From: Streptosporangium becharense
Lineage (GTDB): Bacteria > Actinomycetota > Actinomycetes > Streptosporangiales > Streptosporangiaceae
Assembly: GCF_014204985.1 (NCBI RefSeq)
Contig: NZ_JACHMP010000001.1
Coordinates: 2,108,001 to 2,172,000, forward strand
Reading direction: 5' to 3'
DNA: 64,000 bases
The stretch's first letter is position 1, and every line of letters starts with the position of its first letter. Positions 23,465 to 29,419 of the stretch are shown one piece after another. The translations under genes and the position numbers were made by a program. The notes under the pieces were generated by a model that ran no database searches, was not told where the DNA came from, and worked only from the letters and a program-made list of their open reading frames with translations.

Positions 23465-23501
23465 ATTCTATGTATTGACATTGCGTTCCATGTAATAGAA
23501 C
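23465..23501. promoter_or_regulatory. tandem 17-bp operator sites upstream of the symporter gene
   Basis: ATTCTATGTATTGACAT (23465-23481) and GTTCCATGTAATAGAAC (23485-23501) start exactly 20 bp apart. The second is a near-palindrome of form GTTCYATNNNATRGAAC. They lie just before the ribosome-binding site, well placed for repression. Similar pairs lie upstream of the tautomerase and kduI genes. The IclR protein encoded in the cluster is the likely binder (inference). Confidence 0.75.
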
Positions 23502-23533: not shown

Positions 23534-25036
23534 ATGTCCGCACTCGACTGGCTCGTCCTTGGGGCGTACTTCCTTGTCATGGTCGCCATCGGCGTGTGGT
23601 CGAAGAGCCGCATCAAGAATGTGGTCGACTTCTTCACCGCCGGCGGCCGCATCCCCTGGTGGTTATCCGGCATCTCCCACCACATGTCGGGTTACAGCGC
23701 GATCATGTTCGTGGCGTTCGCGGCCGTCGCCTACCAGTACGGGCTGGCCATGTACGTCTGGTGGGCGCTGACCATCGGCCTCGGCGTCGGTGTCGGGGCC
23801 TTCCTCTGGGCGGCCCGGTGGAACCGGCTCCGGTCGAAGCACGGCGTGGTCTCCCCCCTGGAGTACCTCGCCAGGCGTTACAACCTGCCGACCCAGCAGG
23901 TGCTGGCCTACAGCGGCGCGCTGCTGAAGGTGGTGGACATCGCGGCCAAGTGGGTGGCGATCGCGATCCTGCTCCGGGGCTTCGCGGGGATCCCGATCCG
24001 GTGGGGAATCCTGGTCACCGGAGCCGTCACGCTGATCTACATCACGGCCGGGGGCCTGTGGGCGGACGTGCTCACCGACTTCGGGCAGTTCGTCATCCAG
24101 GGTGTCGCGGGCGTCGCCATGTTCATCGCGATCATGGCGCACCTGGACGGCGTCGCCACCCTGTGGACGATGTGGGACAAGCTTCCCGAAGGGCACGGCG
24201 ACCCCTTCAACGGGCCCTACACGACGACGTTCTTCCTCGCCCTGCTCTTCATCAAGACCTTCGAGTACAACGGCGGAATGTGGAACCTCGCCCAGCGCTA
24301 CATGGCCGCCTCCTCGGGCTCGGAGGCCAAGCGCTCGGCGCTGCTGTCGAGCGCGCTGTGGCTCATCTGGCCGCTGATCCTGTTCATCCCGATGTTCGCC
24401 GCGCCGCTCATCGTGCCCGGCCTGGCCAACGCCGAAGAGGCCTATGTACGGCTGGCGCAGACCCTGCTGCCGCCGGGTGTGATCGGCCTGGTGCTGGCGG
24501 GCTTCTTCTCGCACACCATGGCCATGGTCGCCTCCGACGCCAACGTGATCTCCTCGGTCATCACCCGGGACATCGCCCCGGTGATCGTCCGCCGGGTGCG
24601 CGAACTGTCCGCCCGGGCCGAACTGACCTTCGCCCGGGTGACCACGTTCGTCTTCGTACTGATCAGCATGGTGATCGCCATCTCGACCGAGGGTCAGGGC
24701 GTCGTACTGAAGATCGTGGTCGACCTGGTCGCGGCGACGATGGGACCGATCTCGATCCCGCTGATGCTGGGCATGCTGCCGTGGTTCCGGCGGAGCGGCC
24801 CGACCGCGGCGATCGTCTCCTGGGCCGCGGGCCTGGGCGTCTGGGCGTACGTGAAGTGGATCGTCGAGGCCAAGGACACCGCGATGGTGGTCGGCGTGCC
24901 GCTGGTGACGTCACTGGTCCTCTACGTGGCGATCGGGCTGCTGAAGCCGGAGAACCGCGCCGATCGCGACGCGTTGGTCGACTCCCTGGACACCGACGCC
25001 GACACCGCGCCGGAGCGGGCGGGTGCGAGCGGCTGA
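23534..25036 (+). CDS. sodium:solute symporter (SSS family), probable uronate importer
   Basis: This 500-residue membrane protein has about 13 transmembrane segments. SSS features are visible: an N-terminal DFFTAGGRIPWW segment, GYSAIMFVAF and DVLTDFGQFVIQG. A strong GGAGGA precedes the ATG by 6 bases. The gene is divergent from ftsK and lies beside kduI/kduD. Its operators match those of kduI and the tautomerase, so its substrate is likely an unsaturated uronate or 5-keto-4-deoxyuronate (inference). It ends at a strong bidirectional terminator. Confidence 0.9.
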   Translation: MSALDWLVLGAYFLVMVAIGVWSKSRIKNVVDFFTAGGRIPWWLSGISHHMSGYSAIMFVAFAAVAYQYGLAMYVWWALTIGLGVGVGAFLWAARWNRLRSKHGVVSPLEYLARRYNLPTQQVLAYSGALLKVVDIAAKWVAIAILLRGFAGIPIRWGILVTGAVTLIYITAGGLWADVLTDFGQFVIQGVAGVAMFIAIMAHLDGVATLWTMWDKLPEGHGDPFNGPYTTTFFLALLFIKTFEYNGGMWNLAQRYMAASSGSEAKRSALLSSALWLIWPLILFIPMFAAPLIVPGLANAEEAYVRLAQTLLPPGVIGLVLAGFFSHTMAMVASDANVISSVITRDIAPVIVRRVRELSARAELTFARVTTFVFVLISMVIAISTEGQGVVLKIVVDLVAATMGPISIPLMLGMLPWFRRSGPTAAIVSWAAGLGVWAYVKWIVEAKDTAMVVGVPLVTSLVLYVAIGLLKPENRADRDALVDSLDTDADTAPERAGASG

Positions 25037-25134: not shown

Positions 25135-25320
25135 CTACTTGTCGGACTCCAGGACGCCACCGTTGGCGACGTCGGACTTCTCGATCTCCGTGAAGACGAT
25201 GCGCACCGCCTCGCGGCGCGCCTTCAGGATGTCCACCGCCGCGTCGGTCAGCGCGGCCACGAATTCGCGGCGCTGGTCGAGGGTCCGACCCGACAGCAGC
25301 TCGACGGTGATGTTCGGCAT
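25135..25320 (-). CDS. 4-oxalocrotonate tautomerase-like small protein
   Basis: This is a 61-residue protein. After Met removal it starts Pro-Asn-Ile-Thr, giving catalytic Pro1; Arg11 and Arg39 (mature numbering) match the active-site arginines of 4-oxalocrotonate tautomerase. The canonical Phe50 is replaced. GGAGG lies 6 bases before ATG 25320, which decides the start over the longer frame. It has its own promoter with two operator sites like those of kduI and the symporter, so it is likely part of uronate catabolism. An activity such as tautomerising or linearising an unsaturated uronate is a hypothesis only. Confidence 0.88.
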   Translation of the reverse strand: MPNITVELLSGRTLDQRREFVAALTDAAVDILKARREAVRIVFTEIEKSDVANGGVLESDK

Positions 25321-25340
25321 GACGACCTCCGGATCATTGT

Positions 25341-25377
25341 GTTGCATAACATGACACCAGATTCCGCTACATGAAAC
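25341..25377. promoter_or_regulatory. tandem 17-bp operator sites upstream of the tautomerase gene
   Basis: GTTGCATAACATGACAC (25341-25357) and ATTCCGCTACATGAAAC (25361-25377) start 20 bp apart, the same arrangement as at the symporter and kduI promoters. They lie 20-57 bases upstream of the tautomerase ATG. Confidence 0.7.
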
Positions 25378-25441: not shown

Positions 25442-25466
25442 GGCTGACGGCCCCCGCCCGTCAGCC
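25442..25466. terminator. hairpin at the end of the kduI-kduD-iclR operon
   Basis: Arms GGCTGACGG and CCGTCAGCC (9 bp) enclose CCCCCGC at the end of the iclR reading frame; the right arm includes the iclR stop codon. A second GC-rich inverted repeat (GCCGCC...GGCGGC region) follows. It probably terminates the leftward operon. Confidence 0.6.
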
Positions 25467-26225
25467 GCGCAGGACCGGTTCGGGAGCGCCGAGAGCGCGG
25501 GAGACCTCCTTGGCCGCCGCGACCACCTCGGGGGCGAACCGCTCGACGTCCTCGCGGCTCATGTCCATCGCCAGGGCGGAGATGGAGATGCCGCCGAGCA
25601 CCTGACCGGTGTGGTCGAAGACCGGGGCCGCCACGCACAGGATGCCGGGGAGGTTCTCCTCGTCGTCCAGCGCGTAGCCGCGGGCGCGCACCTCGGCCAG
25701 ATGGGCCACGAGCCCGTCCGGCGTCGTCAGGGTGCCGGGCGTGGCGGCGGGCATGCCCGTGCGGGCACAGATGGCGCGGACCTCGTCCTCGCCCAGCTGG
25801 GCGAGGATCGCCTTGCCGATCGCGGTGCAGTGCAGGCGCAGGCTCATGCCGACGCGCGAGGGCATCTGGTACGGCCGCCGGCCCTCCAGCTTGTCGACGT
25901 AGACGGCTTCGTCGCCGCTGCGGATCGCGAAGTGCGTGGTGTAGCCGATCCGCTCGTGCAGGGCGTTCAGCGCCACGGACGCCTGGCGGGCCGGGTCGAA
26001 GCGGTTCATGACCCGCCCCGCCAGTGTGAGGATGCGGGGGCCGGGCTCGTAACCCCCGCTGCCGTCCGCCCGCGCGAACCCCCACTCGACGAGCGACTGG
26101 AGGATGCGATGGACGGTCGATTTCGACACCCCCGTCGCGGCGGCGATGTCGGTTACGCGATGGTGCTCGGCTATCGCCTCCAGCACCGCCAGCGCCTTGT
26201 CGATGGAGCTGCCTTCCCTGACCAC
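25461..26225 (-). CDS. IclR-family regulator, probable KdgR-like repressor
   Basis: This 254-residue protein has an N-terminal winged helix (AAATGVSKSTVHRILQSLVEWG) and a C-terminal IclR effector domain (LHCTAIGKAILAQL, GYALDDEENLPGILCVAAPVF). GTG 26225 is chosen because the longer frame upstream is antisense-like noise over kduD. The stop-to-start gap from kduD is 17 bases. IclR members such as KdgR control pectin/uronate genes, so this is the likely binder of the tandem 17-bp sites at three nearby promoters. Effector identity (a keto-deoxyuronate) is inferred. Confidence 0.9.
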   Translation of the reverse strand: MVREGSSIDKALAVLEAIAEHHRVTDIAAATGVSKSTVHRILQSLVEWGFARADGSGGYEPGPRILTLAGRVMNRFDPARQASVALNALHERIGYTTHFAIRSGDEAVYVDKLEGRRPYQMPSRVGMSLRLHCTAIGKAILAQLGEDEVRAICARTGMPAATPGTLTTPDGLVAHLAEVRARGYALDDEENLPGILCVAAPVFDHTGQVLGGISISALAMDMSREDVERFAPEVVAAAKEVSRALGAPEPVLRG

Positions 26226-26242
26226 GACCGTGAGCCTACTGG

Positions 26243-26980
26243 TCAGCGCGCCAACCAGCCTCCATCCACCGCCAGCACGTGCCCGTTGACGTAGTCGGAG
26301 GCAGCGGACGCCAGGAAGACGGCCGCTCCCACGAGGTCCGCCGGAGCACCCCAGCGGCCCGCCGGGATGCGTGCCCGGATCTCGGCCTCCCGCGCGGGGT
26401 CGTCCCACAGGCGTTCGGTGTTGTTCGTCCTGATGTAGCCGGGGGCGATGGCGTTGACCTGCACCCCGGAGCCCGCCCACTCGCAGGCCAGAGCCCTGGT
26501 GAGCCCGGCCACGGCGTGCTTGGAGGCGGTGTAGCCGGGGACGTTGACGCCGCCCTGGAAGGACAGCATGGAGGCGATCATGATGATCTTCCCGGAGCCG
26601 CGGGCCAGCATGCGCGTCCCGACGGCCTGGCTGAGCAGGAAGACCGCGTCCAGGTTGACGTCGAGGACCTCGCGGAAGGAGTCGTAGGGGTGTTCGGCGG
26701 CTGGAGCCCTGCGGATGATCCCCGCGTTGTTGACCAGCACGTCGATCGGCTCCAGCCGCCCGGCGGCCTCGGGGACGCGTCCCGGGTCCGACAGGTCGAG
26801 GATCCACCGCGAGACCCGCCGGCCGATCTCGCGTACCTCGGCCTCGACCTCGTCCAGGTCGTCGTCACGGCCGTGCAGGACCAAATCGGCCCCGGCCGCG
26901 GCCAGGCCCACCGCCAGGGCCCGCCCGATCCCGGTGCGCGCGCCGGTGACGAGCGCGGTCTTGCCCTCCAGGGAGAACAT
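26243..26980 (-). CDS. kduD: 2-dehydro-3-deoxy-D-gluconate 5-dehydrogenase KduD (SDR)
   Basis: This 245-residue short-chain dehydrogenase has the cofactor motif TGARTGIG, NNAGII, catalytic Ser/Tyr/Lys with YTASKHAV, and the KduD-typical NAIAPGYIRTNNTE. It interconverts 2,5-diketo-3-deoxygluconate and 2-keto-3-deoxygluconate, the step after KduI. Its ATG overlaps the kduI stop by one base (TGATG), so the two are translationally coupled. Confidence 0.93.
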   Translation of the reverse strand: MFSLEGKTALVTGARTGIGRALAVGLAAAGADLVLHGRDDDLDEVEAEVREIGRRVSRWILDLSDPGRVPEAAGRLEPIDVLVNNAGIIRRAPAAEHPYDSFREVLDVNLDAVFLLSQAVGTRMLARGSGKIIMIASMLSFQGGVNVPGYTASKHAVAGLTRALACEWAGSGVQVNAIAPGYIRTNNTERLWDDPAREAEIRARIPAGRWGAPADLVGAAVFLASAASDYVNGHVLAVDGGWLAR

Positions 26981-27792
26981 CAGCGCATCTCGCCGATCGC
27001 GACCTGCTCCATGTCCTCGAACGCCTGGTTCTCCCCGCCCATGGCCCAGACGAAGGAGTAGCTCCGGGTGCCGAAGCCGCAGTGCACCGACCAGGACGGC
27101 GAGATCACCGCCTGCCGGTCGGCGACCACCAGGTTGCGGGTCTCGTCGGGCCGCCCCATCAGGTGGATCACCCGCTCCCCCGGCGGCAGGTCGAAGTAGA
27201 GGTAGACCTCGGTCCGGCGCTCATGGGTGTGGCAGGGCATGGTGTTCCACATGCTGCCGGGCTCCAGCACGGTCACGCCCAGCACGAGCTGACAGCTCTG
27301 GACGCCTTTGGCGTGGATGTACTTGTAGATCGTGCGTTCGTTGGACCCGTCCCGGCCGCCCAGCCGCACCGGCTCGGCGTCCTCCAGCGTCGCCCGCGCG
27401 GTCGGCAGGGTCGCGTGCGCGGGGGTGGAGACCAGGTAGAACGGACCGCCCTCGAAAGTCACCTCGCGCGACTCGCGACCGGCGTAGAGGCACTCCCTGG
27501 GCGCCAGCCCGTACGACACGCCGTCGACGGTCACCGTGCCCGCCTCGCCCACGTTGACCACGCCCAGCTCACGGCGCTGGAGGAAGTAGTCGGACCTGAG
27601 CGGGTCGGGGCTGTGCAGCCTCAGCGGCGTGTCCTCCGGCTGCGCGCCGCCGATCACGATCCGGTCCTCGTGGGAGTAGAGCAGACGGACCTCCCCGGGC
27701 ACGAAGAGCCGCTCCGCCAGGAACCGGCGGCGCAGCCAGTCGGTGGTCGCCCCGGGTATCTGGTCGGGTGCCGTGGCGTGCCGTACCTCCAT
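26980..27792 (-). CDS. kduI: 5-dehydro-4-deoxy-D-glucuronate isomerase KduI
   Basis: This 270-residue cupin enzyme matches KduI (E. coli 278 residues). Metal-binding features include CHTHERRTEVYLYFDL and PSWSVHCG; the C-terminus FVWAMGGENQAFEDM is typical. It isomerises 5-keto-4-deoxyuronate from unsaturated uronates to 2,5-diketo-3-deoxygluconate. AAAGGAGG lies 4 bases before the ATG. Upstream sit two 17-bp operator sites. No pectate lyase, KdgK or KdgA is in the window, so the pathway is completed elsewhere. Confidence 0.94.
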   Translation of the reverse strand: MEVRHATAPDQIPGATTDWLRRRFLAERLFVPGEVRLLYSHEDRIVIGGAQPEDTPLRLHSPDPLRSDYFLQRRELGVVNVGEAGTVTVDGVSYGLAPRECLYAGRESREVTFEGGPFYLVSTPAHATLPTARATLEDAEPVRLGGRDGSNERTIYKYIHAKGVQSCQLVLGVTVLEPGSMWNTMPCHTHERRTEVYLYFDLPPGERVIHLMGRPDETRNLVVADRQAVISPSWSVHCGFGTRSYSFVWAMGGENQAFEDMEQVAIGEMR

Positions 27793-27804: not shown

Positions 27805-27841
27805 GTTCTACTACATGGAATTAAAAGCTGCTACATAGAAC
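27805..27841. promoter_or_regulatory. tandem 17-bp operator sites upstream of kduI
   Basis: GTTCTACTACATGGAAT (27805-27821) and AAGCTGCTACATAGAAC (27825-27841) start 20 bp apart. Both contain CTACAT(A/G)GAA and match the sites at 23465-23501 and 25341-25377. They lie 12-50 bases upstream of the kduI ATG. Confidence 0.75.
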
Positions 27842-27893
27842 AGTACGAGCATATAACGGCACCTCTCTCCGCGCACCCGTCACCGCGTTCCGC

Positions 27894-27963: not shown

Positions 27964-28623
27964 ATGACCGGGACAAGGCGGACCGCACTGTTCGTGGCGG
28001 CGACGGGGGCGGCCCTCACGACCGCCTTCACCGGGGGCGTCGCCCTCGCCGAGACGGGACAGACGTCGGGGCAGATCCCCCGCGGCTTCCTGCTGTACGA
28101 GGCGGAGGCCCGCAAGCCGGTCGACCCCTCTCTCGGGGAGAAGTGGACGATCAGCAACAAGCTGAGCAGCAACCTCGCGTTCAACCCGTGCACCCTGAAC
28201 AGCCCCTCGGACGGCGGCCGGGTGAGCGCCCGGACGATCGAGTACTCCTTCTCCGAGGTCCACCGGGCCGAGCAACTGGTTCTCTACCGCACCGCCGGCG
28301 CCGCACGCTCCGCCATGTCCGGCCTGCTCGCACAGGTCAACCGATGCAAGGTCGACAAGTCCGGCTCCCTGGTCTTCAAGGCCTCGGCGCAGGCGGTCGG
28401 CATCGGCGACCAGGCCGCGCGGCTGACCATCCAGGCCTACGACAAGAACGGGCGTCCCGTCGTCGGCGGCCAGCGGGCCGTCGTCGTGCGCAAGGGCCGT
28501 GCCCTGGCGCTCTACCTCCACGGGGCCGAGTACCACTCGGTGAAGAGCGACCACTTCTCCGAGCAACTGGTGGACGCCCGGAGGATGGCGGGCAAGGTCT
28601 GCTCGCTGCCCGGCGTCTGCTGA
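27964..28623 (+). CDS. secreted four-cysteine protein, copy 1
   Basis: This 219-residue protein has a signal peptide (basic start, hydrophobic stretch to about residue 30, ending GVALAE). The mature domain has four Cys: FNPC, NRCK and the C-terminal pair in VCSLPGVC. It is paralogous to the next gene (shared EARKPVD, EKWTISNKL, VSART, MAGKVCSLPGVC). The AxxA-rich helix near the middle Cys recalls PknH-type extracellular sensor domains, which hold two disulfides, but this is only a resemblance of layout. GGAGAAGG precedes the ATG. Function is unknown. Confidence 0.82.
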   Translation: MTGTRRTALFVAATGAALTTAFTGGVALAETGQTSGQIPRGFLLYEAEARKPVDPSLGEKWTISNKLSSNLAFNPCTLNSPSDGGRVSARTIEYSFSEVHRAEQLVLYRTAGAARSAMSGLLAQVNRCKVDKSGSLVFKASAQAVGIGDQAARLTIQAYDKNGRPVVGGQRAVVVRKGRALALYLHGAEYHSVKSDHFSEQLVDARRMAGKVCSLPGVC

Positions 28624-28735: not shown

Positions 28736-29419
28736 ATGACCGGAACTGGACGACGGATGGCGCTGCGCGTGACGACGGCGGCAGCGGTGGCGGGCGCGAC
28801 GCTCGCGACCGCGCTCGCCGGCGGCACCGCCCTCGCCGAGACGGGACAGGCCGCCGGGCAGTTCCCCAAGGACTTCCTGTTGTATGAGTCCGAGGCCCGC
28901 AAGCCGGTGGACGACCCGACCGAAGAGAAATGGACGATCAGCAACAAGTTGGGCAAGAACCCCGGATTCTCCCCGTGTGACCTGAGCAAGCACATGCGCG
29001 GCGGTCAGGTGAGCGCGCGGACGGTCGGCTTCAACGCCCCCCTCTTCTACCGGGGCGAGCAGCTGGTGGTCTACCGCTCGGAGAGCGCCGCGCGCAGCGC
29101 GTTCGCCGGCCTGCTCAAGCAGGCCCGCAAGTGCGCGAAGTTCACATCCCACTCCGTGCCCTTCAAGACCACGACGCAGCCGGTCAAGGCGGGGGACCAG
29201 GCCGTGCGGGTGGCGATCCAGGGCGGCGACCACCCCAGCACCGGGAAACCCAGCCTGCAGGGCCAGCGGGCCGTGGTCATGCGCAAGGGCCGGGCCGTGG
29301 CCGTCTACCTCCTCTCCGGCGACTCCGCCGAGAAGGTGTACGACCGCGACTTCACCGAGCAGCTGAGGGATGCCAGGAAGATGGCCGGCAAGGTCTGCTC
29401 CCTGCCCGGCGTCTGCTGA
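28736..29419 (+). CDS. secreted four-cysteine protein, copy 2
   Basis: This 227-residue paralogue of the preceding gene has a signal peptide ending near GGTALAE and Cys residues in FSPC, RKCAK and VCSLPGVC. Conserved motifs include FLLYESEARKPVDD and GQRAVVMRKGRAVAVYL. ATG 28736 is preferred to the frame start at 28628, which lies upstream of the promoter-like element. The tandem copies and twin promoters point to a recent duplication. Extracellular location is inferred from the signal peptide; function is unknown. Confidence 0.82.
   Translation: MTGTGRRMALRVTTAAAVAGATLATALAGGTALAETGQAAGQFPKDFLLYESEARKPVDDPTEEKWTISNKLGKNPGFSPCDLSKHMRGGQVSARTVGFNAPLFYRGEQLVVYRSESAARSAFAGLLKQARKCAKFTSHSVPFKTTTQPVKAGDQAVRVAIQGGDHPSTGKPSLQGQRAVVMRKGRAVAVYLLSGDSAEKVYDRDFTEQLRDARKMAGKVCSLPGVC

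Follow-up and report, generated by a model that had tools for sequence, protein, structure and literature searches.

What does a small tautomerase do beside the genes for KduI and KduD? In other organisms the cupin KdgF (Yersinia, Halomonas, Bacteroides eggerthii) carries out ring opening of 4,5-unsaturated monouronates. A laboratory E. coli strain deleted for kdgF is reported to grow at 0.28/h, compared to 0.49/h for the wild type (PMC8778563). For nearly all kdu/dhu cluster types kdgF is present in less than half of the strains, and conversion without it has been attributed to non-enzymatic, spontaneous ring opening (PMC12838403). The locus considered here lies in a stretch of 64,000 nucleotides from Streptosporangium becharense (hereafter the window). 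It holds a kduI/kduD cluster in which kdgF was not found, and a gene for a protein resembling 4-oxalocrotonate tautomerase (4-OT), which the original prediction proposed as an unrecognised step of the pathway. The tautomerase very probably belongs to the KduI/KduD uronate pathway as an enzyme dedicated to it, a conclusion drawn from its family, its invariant residues, a shared operator, conserved linkage and the failure to find KdgF. Which reaction it would catalyze can be narrowed to a few candidates.

The tautomerase and its place in the locus

The tautomerase gene sits between a sodium/solute symporter gene and an IclR-kduD-kduI unit (25461-27792, minus strand; Table 1). The identities of KduI, the IclR protein and the symporter were upheld by Pfam and NCBIfam. 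Two similar tandem proteins of ~220 residues with signal-peptide-like starts are encoded just past kduI on the plus strand (27964-28623 and 28757-29419).

Table 1. Features of the kdu locus, in window coordinates
Feature	Position	Strand	Remarks
Operator pair upstream of symporter	23465..23501	+	Exact site TTCCATGTAATAGAA
Sodium/solute symporter (SSF, PF00474)	23534..25036	+	Pfam/NCBIfam
Tautomerase gene	25135..25320	-	61 aa + stop; Pro1/Arg11/Arg39, Val50, Asn52; Pfam match
Operator pair upstream of tautomerase	25340..25376	-	TTTCATGTAGCGGAA with a second, degenerate copy; also kept in other Streptosporangiaceae
IclR-family regulator, KdgR-like	25461..26225	-	Pfam/NCBIfam; putative operator-binding protein
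kduD (SDR)	26243..26980	-	TIGR01832, 336.8 bits, just under the equivalog cut-off of 338.9
kduI	26980..27792	-	NF002091, 385 bits, cut-off 250
Operator pair upstream of kduI	27805..27843	-	Exact site TTCCATGTAGTAGAA and TTCTATGTAGCAGCT

The tautomerase reading frame begins with an ATG at 25320, has a GGAGG ribosome site upstream and encodes 61 residues. The product scores 47.5 bits with the Pfam profile PF01361 (Tautomerase; cut-off 22). Pro1 is residue 2 of the frame, straight after the initiator methionine. In this mature numbering Pro1, Arg11 and Arg39 are present, as originally predicted, and position 50 is Val. An AlphaFold model of the protein (mean pLDDT 84) has the beta-alpha-beta fold and aligns with 4-OT crystal structures at TM scores of about 0.72-0.78. 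Judged from its sequence, the protein represents a subfamily within the 4-OTs, an established family of the tautomerase superfamily.

The fold and the three residues are shared with the 2-hydroxymuconate tautomerases XylH and DmpI (PF01361), and would equally be expected of an ordinary tautomerase of aromatic ring cleavage that sits in this locus by accident. Such an accident is hardly credible. Canonical 4-OT carries Phe50 and Ile52, whereas Val50 and Asn52 are found here. None of the NCBIfam 4-OT equivalog cut-offs is reached; the best match is NF001966 with 69.7 bits against 80, and the DmpI profile gives 43.4 bits against 70. The gene context is one of uronate use rather than aromatic degradation, with no meta-cleavage genes seen nearby, and linkage to kduI persists through rearrangements (see below).

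A pattern taken from the N-terminus of the tautomerase alone was used to scan 84,980 species genomes, which gave 147 confirmed loci, of which the best 80 were kept. Pro1, Arg11, Arg39, Glu44, Val50 and Asn52 are unvarying in 80/80 of these best loci. The catalytic proline follows the methionine in all 80, but residues 2-9 were inside the scan pattern, so that conservation there, including Asn2, arises by construction and is not independent evidence. Among 24 further 4-OT homologues, taken from plasmids and the phylum sample, none has Arg39, and position 50 is mostly Trp, Tyr or Ile.

Linkage and a shared operator with kduI

The best 80 of the 147 loci are all actinobacterial and represent 23 named genera. 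In 73 of them kduI lies on the same contig within ~19 kb. In 62/80 a kduI match of 200 residues or more lies no further than 10 kb away, and in a further 11 kduI is about 13-19 kb off, mostly on the far side of a very large gene for a secreted galactose-oxidase-like protein. The other seven include contig ends (L182, L234), decayed loci (L179, L181, L183) and one locus (L230) where kduI is elsewhere in the genome and kduD adjoins the tautomerase; only L223 is simply without kduI. In Nocardioides-type kdu loci, secreted proteins of ~1,900 residues adjoin the tautomerase (L247 10310-16090, L246 10286-16081); these have ThuA, galactose-oxidase-like Kelch, laminin-G and cadherin-like domains and are possible sugar oxidases.

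At least four gene arrangements occur among the 80 loci. Streptosporangiaceae have KduI-KduD-IclR/kinase/tautomerase/symporter, Kribbella has symporter-tautomerase, Actinoplanes has a divergent tautomerase, Paractinoplanes has tautomerase-kduI-kduD in a row, and Nocardioides, Promicromonospora and others have KduI-KduD-ABC transporter-aldehyde dehydrogenase. In Dactylosporangium loci the tautomerase stands beside kduD. In two Kribbella loci, L193 (8850-9944) and L210, an ABC transporter and a 360-residue gene replace the symporter directly upstream of the tautomerase; the 360-residue gene of L193 belongs to the enolase superfamily. Linkage that outlasts rearrangement points to a shared function. 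None of three inspected loci of alphaproteobacterial plasmid tautomerases, which are up to 52% identical, adjoins kduI.

Uronate-dehydrogenase-like (Udh-like) and KdgD-family genes are present in some loci. It is conceivable that the tautomerase acts in a neighbouring pectin or galacturonate activity, on an enol from the oxidative galacturonate route or from a mandelate-racemase/enolase-family dehydratase. The position of the Kribbella L193 tautomerase directly after an enolase-superfamily gene is consistent with this, as are two genomes that retain the tautomerase without kduI and kduD. However, such a role is improbable, given that Udh-like genes are found in 9/80 and KdgD in 11/80 of the best 80 of 147 loci compared to linked kduI in 73/80, and that the window contains no Udh-like, KdgD or enolase-family genes.

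Co-occurrence with kduI/kduD, the check proposed with the original prediction, is evident beyond physical linkage. In a family sample of 201 genomes a close tautomerase is present in 31 and kduI in 37; 28 genomes have both, 3 the tautomerase only, 9 kduI only and 161 neither (Fisher p=3e-23, a value that overstates independence because the sampled genomes are related). A phylum-wide sample has little power, since it includes only 6 kduI genomes. Three genomes, two of them with the extra locus beside the first copy, carry a diverged kduI locus, each with an adjoining diverged tautomerase. The distances of tautomerase and KduI are correlated (0.84), as expected of co-inherited genes.

Loss of the cluster has taken different courses in the three genomes that have the tautomerase and no intact kduI. 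In G012 the tautomerase is a pseudogene with an in-frame stop (L133) by a damaged symporter, and kduI and kduD are gone. In G009 a fused kduI/kduD deletion remnant (L132 8025-8267) lies beside an intact tautomerase, and in G163 kduI and kduD are lost and the tautomerase, kinase and IclR genes are retained. The retention of an intact tautomerase after loss of kduI/kduD in two genomes (L132/L183 and L134/L179) counts against a KdgF-like role, as does a 65% identical homologue in a genome without kduI (L138). The genome of S. becharense also encodes a second KduI (57-59% identical) with a kduD-like gene (contig C1 1289107-1298003; L131 9096-18004). That second locus is without a tautomerase and includes an ABC transporter, two small cupins unlike KdgF and two hydroxyacid dehydrogenases.

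The consensus operator TTYYATGTARNRGAA has three exact copies in the 7.8 Mb genome, which lie before the symporter, the tautomerase and kduI, in agreement with the operator pair first noted at these three genes. Because the consensus was derived from these sites themselves, exact matching is to some degree built in; the telling point is that a fourth exact site is found nowhere in the genome. Each operator has a second, degenerate copy ~20 bp from the exact site. Three one-mismatch sites in the genome are all near unrelated genes. In the Streptosporangiaceae relatives inspected, the tautomerase gene is likewise preceded by the pair. Where a PfkB-family kinase gene (KdgK-like) is divergent from the tautomerase, the operator region is common to both. 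This divergent region is shared by a PfkB-family sugar kinase (KDG-kinase-like) in many relatives (L158 9470-10420, L132, L134, L171); in the window no PfkB-family kinase gene lies beside the tautomerase. The IclR protein is likely the operator-binding protein and would regulate these genes, and from the sites the tautomerase gene seems to be expressed in concert with kduI and kduD.

Chance placement of the tautomerase is ruled out by co-occurrence, linkage and operator count. It is likewise very unlikely that the gene is a passenger with no part in uronate use. Some kduI genomes do lack the tautomerase, but the gene has its own operator site and matched second copies, its median dN/dS of 0.13 is that of purifying selection, and its linkage is kept across the 23 genera in several arrangements.

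KdgF in this genome and in related loci

KdgF is missing from the cluster, as originally noted, and was not found in the rest of the genome either. Thirty Cupin_2 matches were inspected one by one, and the KdgF residues are present in none of them; a search with YeKdgF was also negative. These two results speak against a hidden kdgF. The genomic half of the refutation named with the original prediction does not apply, in that neither a kdgF under the same operator nor another exact site was found elsewhere in the genome. Moreover, kdgF was not found in any of the best 80 of 147 tautomerase loci or in 40 further whole-genome loci. Weak KdgF matches in G028 and G064 resemble other cupins. In G079, which has kduI and no tautomerase, a KdgF-like match lies on another contig.

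By comparison, kdgF directly follows kduD in the kdu operons of Azospirillum sp. B510, Sinorhizobium meliloti and Shinella, and the encoded proteins are about 42-46% identical to YeKdgF. Another gene of the 4-OT family lies ~2 kb beyond kdgF in Azospirillum B510.

A clean mutual exclusion of KdgF and the tautomerase across genomes is unsupported as a statistic. kdgF is likewise missing from most of the kduI genomes that have no tautomerase, and in the family sample YeKdgF matches are not associated with kduI (p=0.79). Nine kduI genomes of the family sample have neither a close tautomerase nor kdgF in their loci, which counts against a KdgF-like role. The argument from a missing kdgF is weak alone, because of these nine genomes and because kdgF is in less than half of the surveyed strains of nearly all cluster types (PMC12838403). 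Of the original prediction, membership in the pathway is supported, by the 28 genomes and the 73/80 loci.

The tautomerase resembles KdgF in its proposed step and its kduI/kduD neighbourhood, and both would give DKI/DEH. Unlike KdgF, it has an unrelated fold, belongs to another Pfam family and is without a metal site; the hallmarks of KdgF (cupin fold, metal ligands, C-terminal D-x-F/R) are not seen in it. The locus is also similar to the kduI-kduD clusters of PMC12838403, with the isomerase-reductase pair and, in some loci, genes for KDG kinase and KDPG aldolase nearby, but the tautomerase is unmentioned in the text of that paper. In the literature searched, which included few subscription journals, no earlier report tying the tautomerase to KduI, KdgF or pectin was found, nor a pathway role for this 4-OT subfamily.

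Possible reactions of the tautomerase

The most likely reading, with perhaps an even chance, is that the tautomerase makes the substrate of KduI by converting the 4,5-unsaturated uronate to 5-keto-4-deoxyuronate (DKI), the job of KdgF elsewhere. The unsaturated uronate would be released by pectate or oligogalacturonate lyases. Its pyranose ring would open at C1, turning the ring oxygen into the enol hydroxyl of HO-C5(COO-)=C4H-. The opened uronate would then present an enol-pyruvate group, like 2-hydroxymuconate or phenylenolpyruvate, both of which are ketonised by 4-OTs (PMC5818174). By analogy, ketonisation of this type would fit the opened uronate as the enol of an alpha-keto acid. Arg11 and Arg39 may hold the carboxylate, Pro1 may serve as the base in ring opening, move the proton from O5 to C4, or do both, and Asn52 may provide a polar wall suited to the sugar chain.

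The proposed mechanism of KdgF is general acid-base ring opening. Opening is favoured as the enzyme-dependent, slow step, and the enol-keto step is too fast to observe (PMC11381880). A purely ketonising enzyme would therefore gain little, and Pro1, if it acts here, probably must aid opening rather than proton transfer alone. For this reason the reaction is proposed with less assurance than membership in the pathway. The broader proposal, that actinobacteria use a tautomerase subfamily, metal-free and dependent on Pro1, in place of the non-homologous KdgF to open and ketonise 4,5-unsaturated uronates before KduI, is put forward tentatively, at slightly less than even chances.

Alternatively, the tautomerase may serve the same pathway on another form or intermediate, by interconverting hydrated or cyclised DKI or by tautomerising DKI or the KduI product, to feed KduI/KduD or to limit damage from reactive keto-aldehydes. 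All of the linkage and regulation evidence applies equally to such a role, and the position beside kduD in Dactylosporangium is consistent with it. DEH, which corresponds to DKI on the alginate side, is for the most part hydrated and cyclised when free (PMC11381880), and reactions of the tautomerase superfamily are diverse and extend beyond tautomerisation (PMC5818174). This role is somewhat unlikely, since Pro1, Arg11 and Arg39 are the residues of enol-keto tautomerases. Furthermore, we know of no described KduI/KduD pathway that needs a DKI-interconverting step.

If the tautomerase does form DKI from the unsaturated uronate, an enzyme for ring opening is at hand in many kduI clusters that were supposed to depend on spontaneous opening, and a metal-free catalyst for unsaturated uronates would be added to the cupin. 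The 4-OT family would gain a role in carbohydrate breakdown that was not found described in the literature searched. A conserved and apparently co-regulated tautomerase in actinobacterial kdu loci is a concrete and easily assayed candidate for the kdgF gap (PMC12838403).

The genome of S. becharense offers evidence on both sides. No GH88/GH105 unsaturated-uronyl hydrolase was found in it, which counts against a KdgF-like role. Seven pectate lyase matches count for a role in uronate use. Three of the seven (PF00544) lie in tandem at positions 2638267-2640956 of contig C1, and the kdu operator has no exact copy near them.
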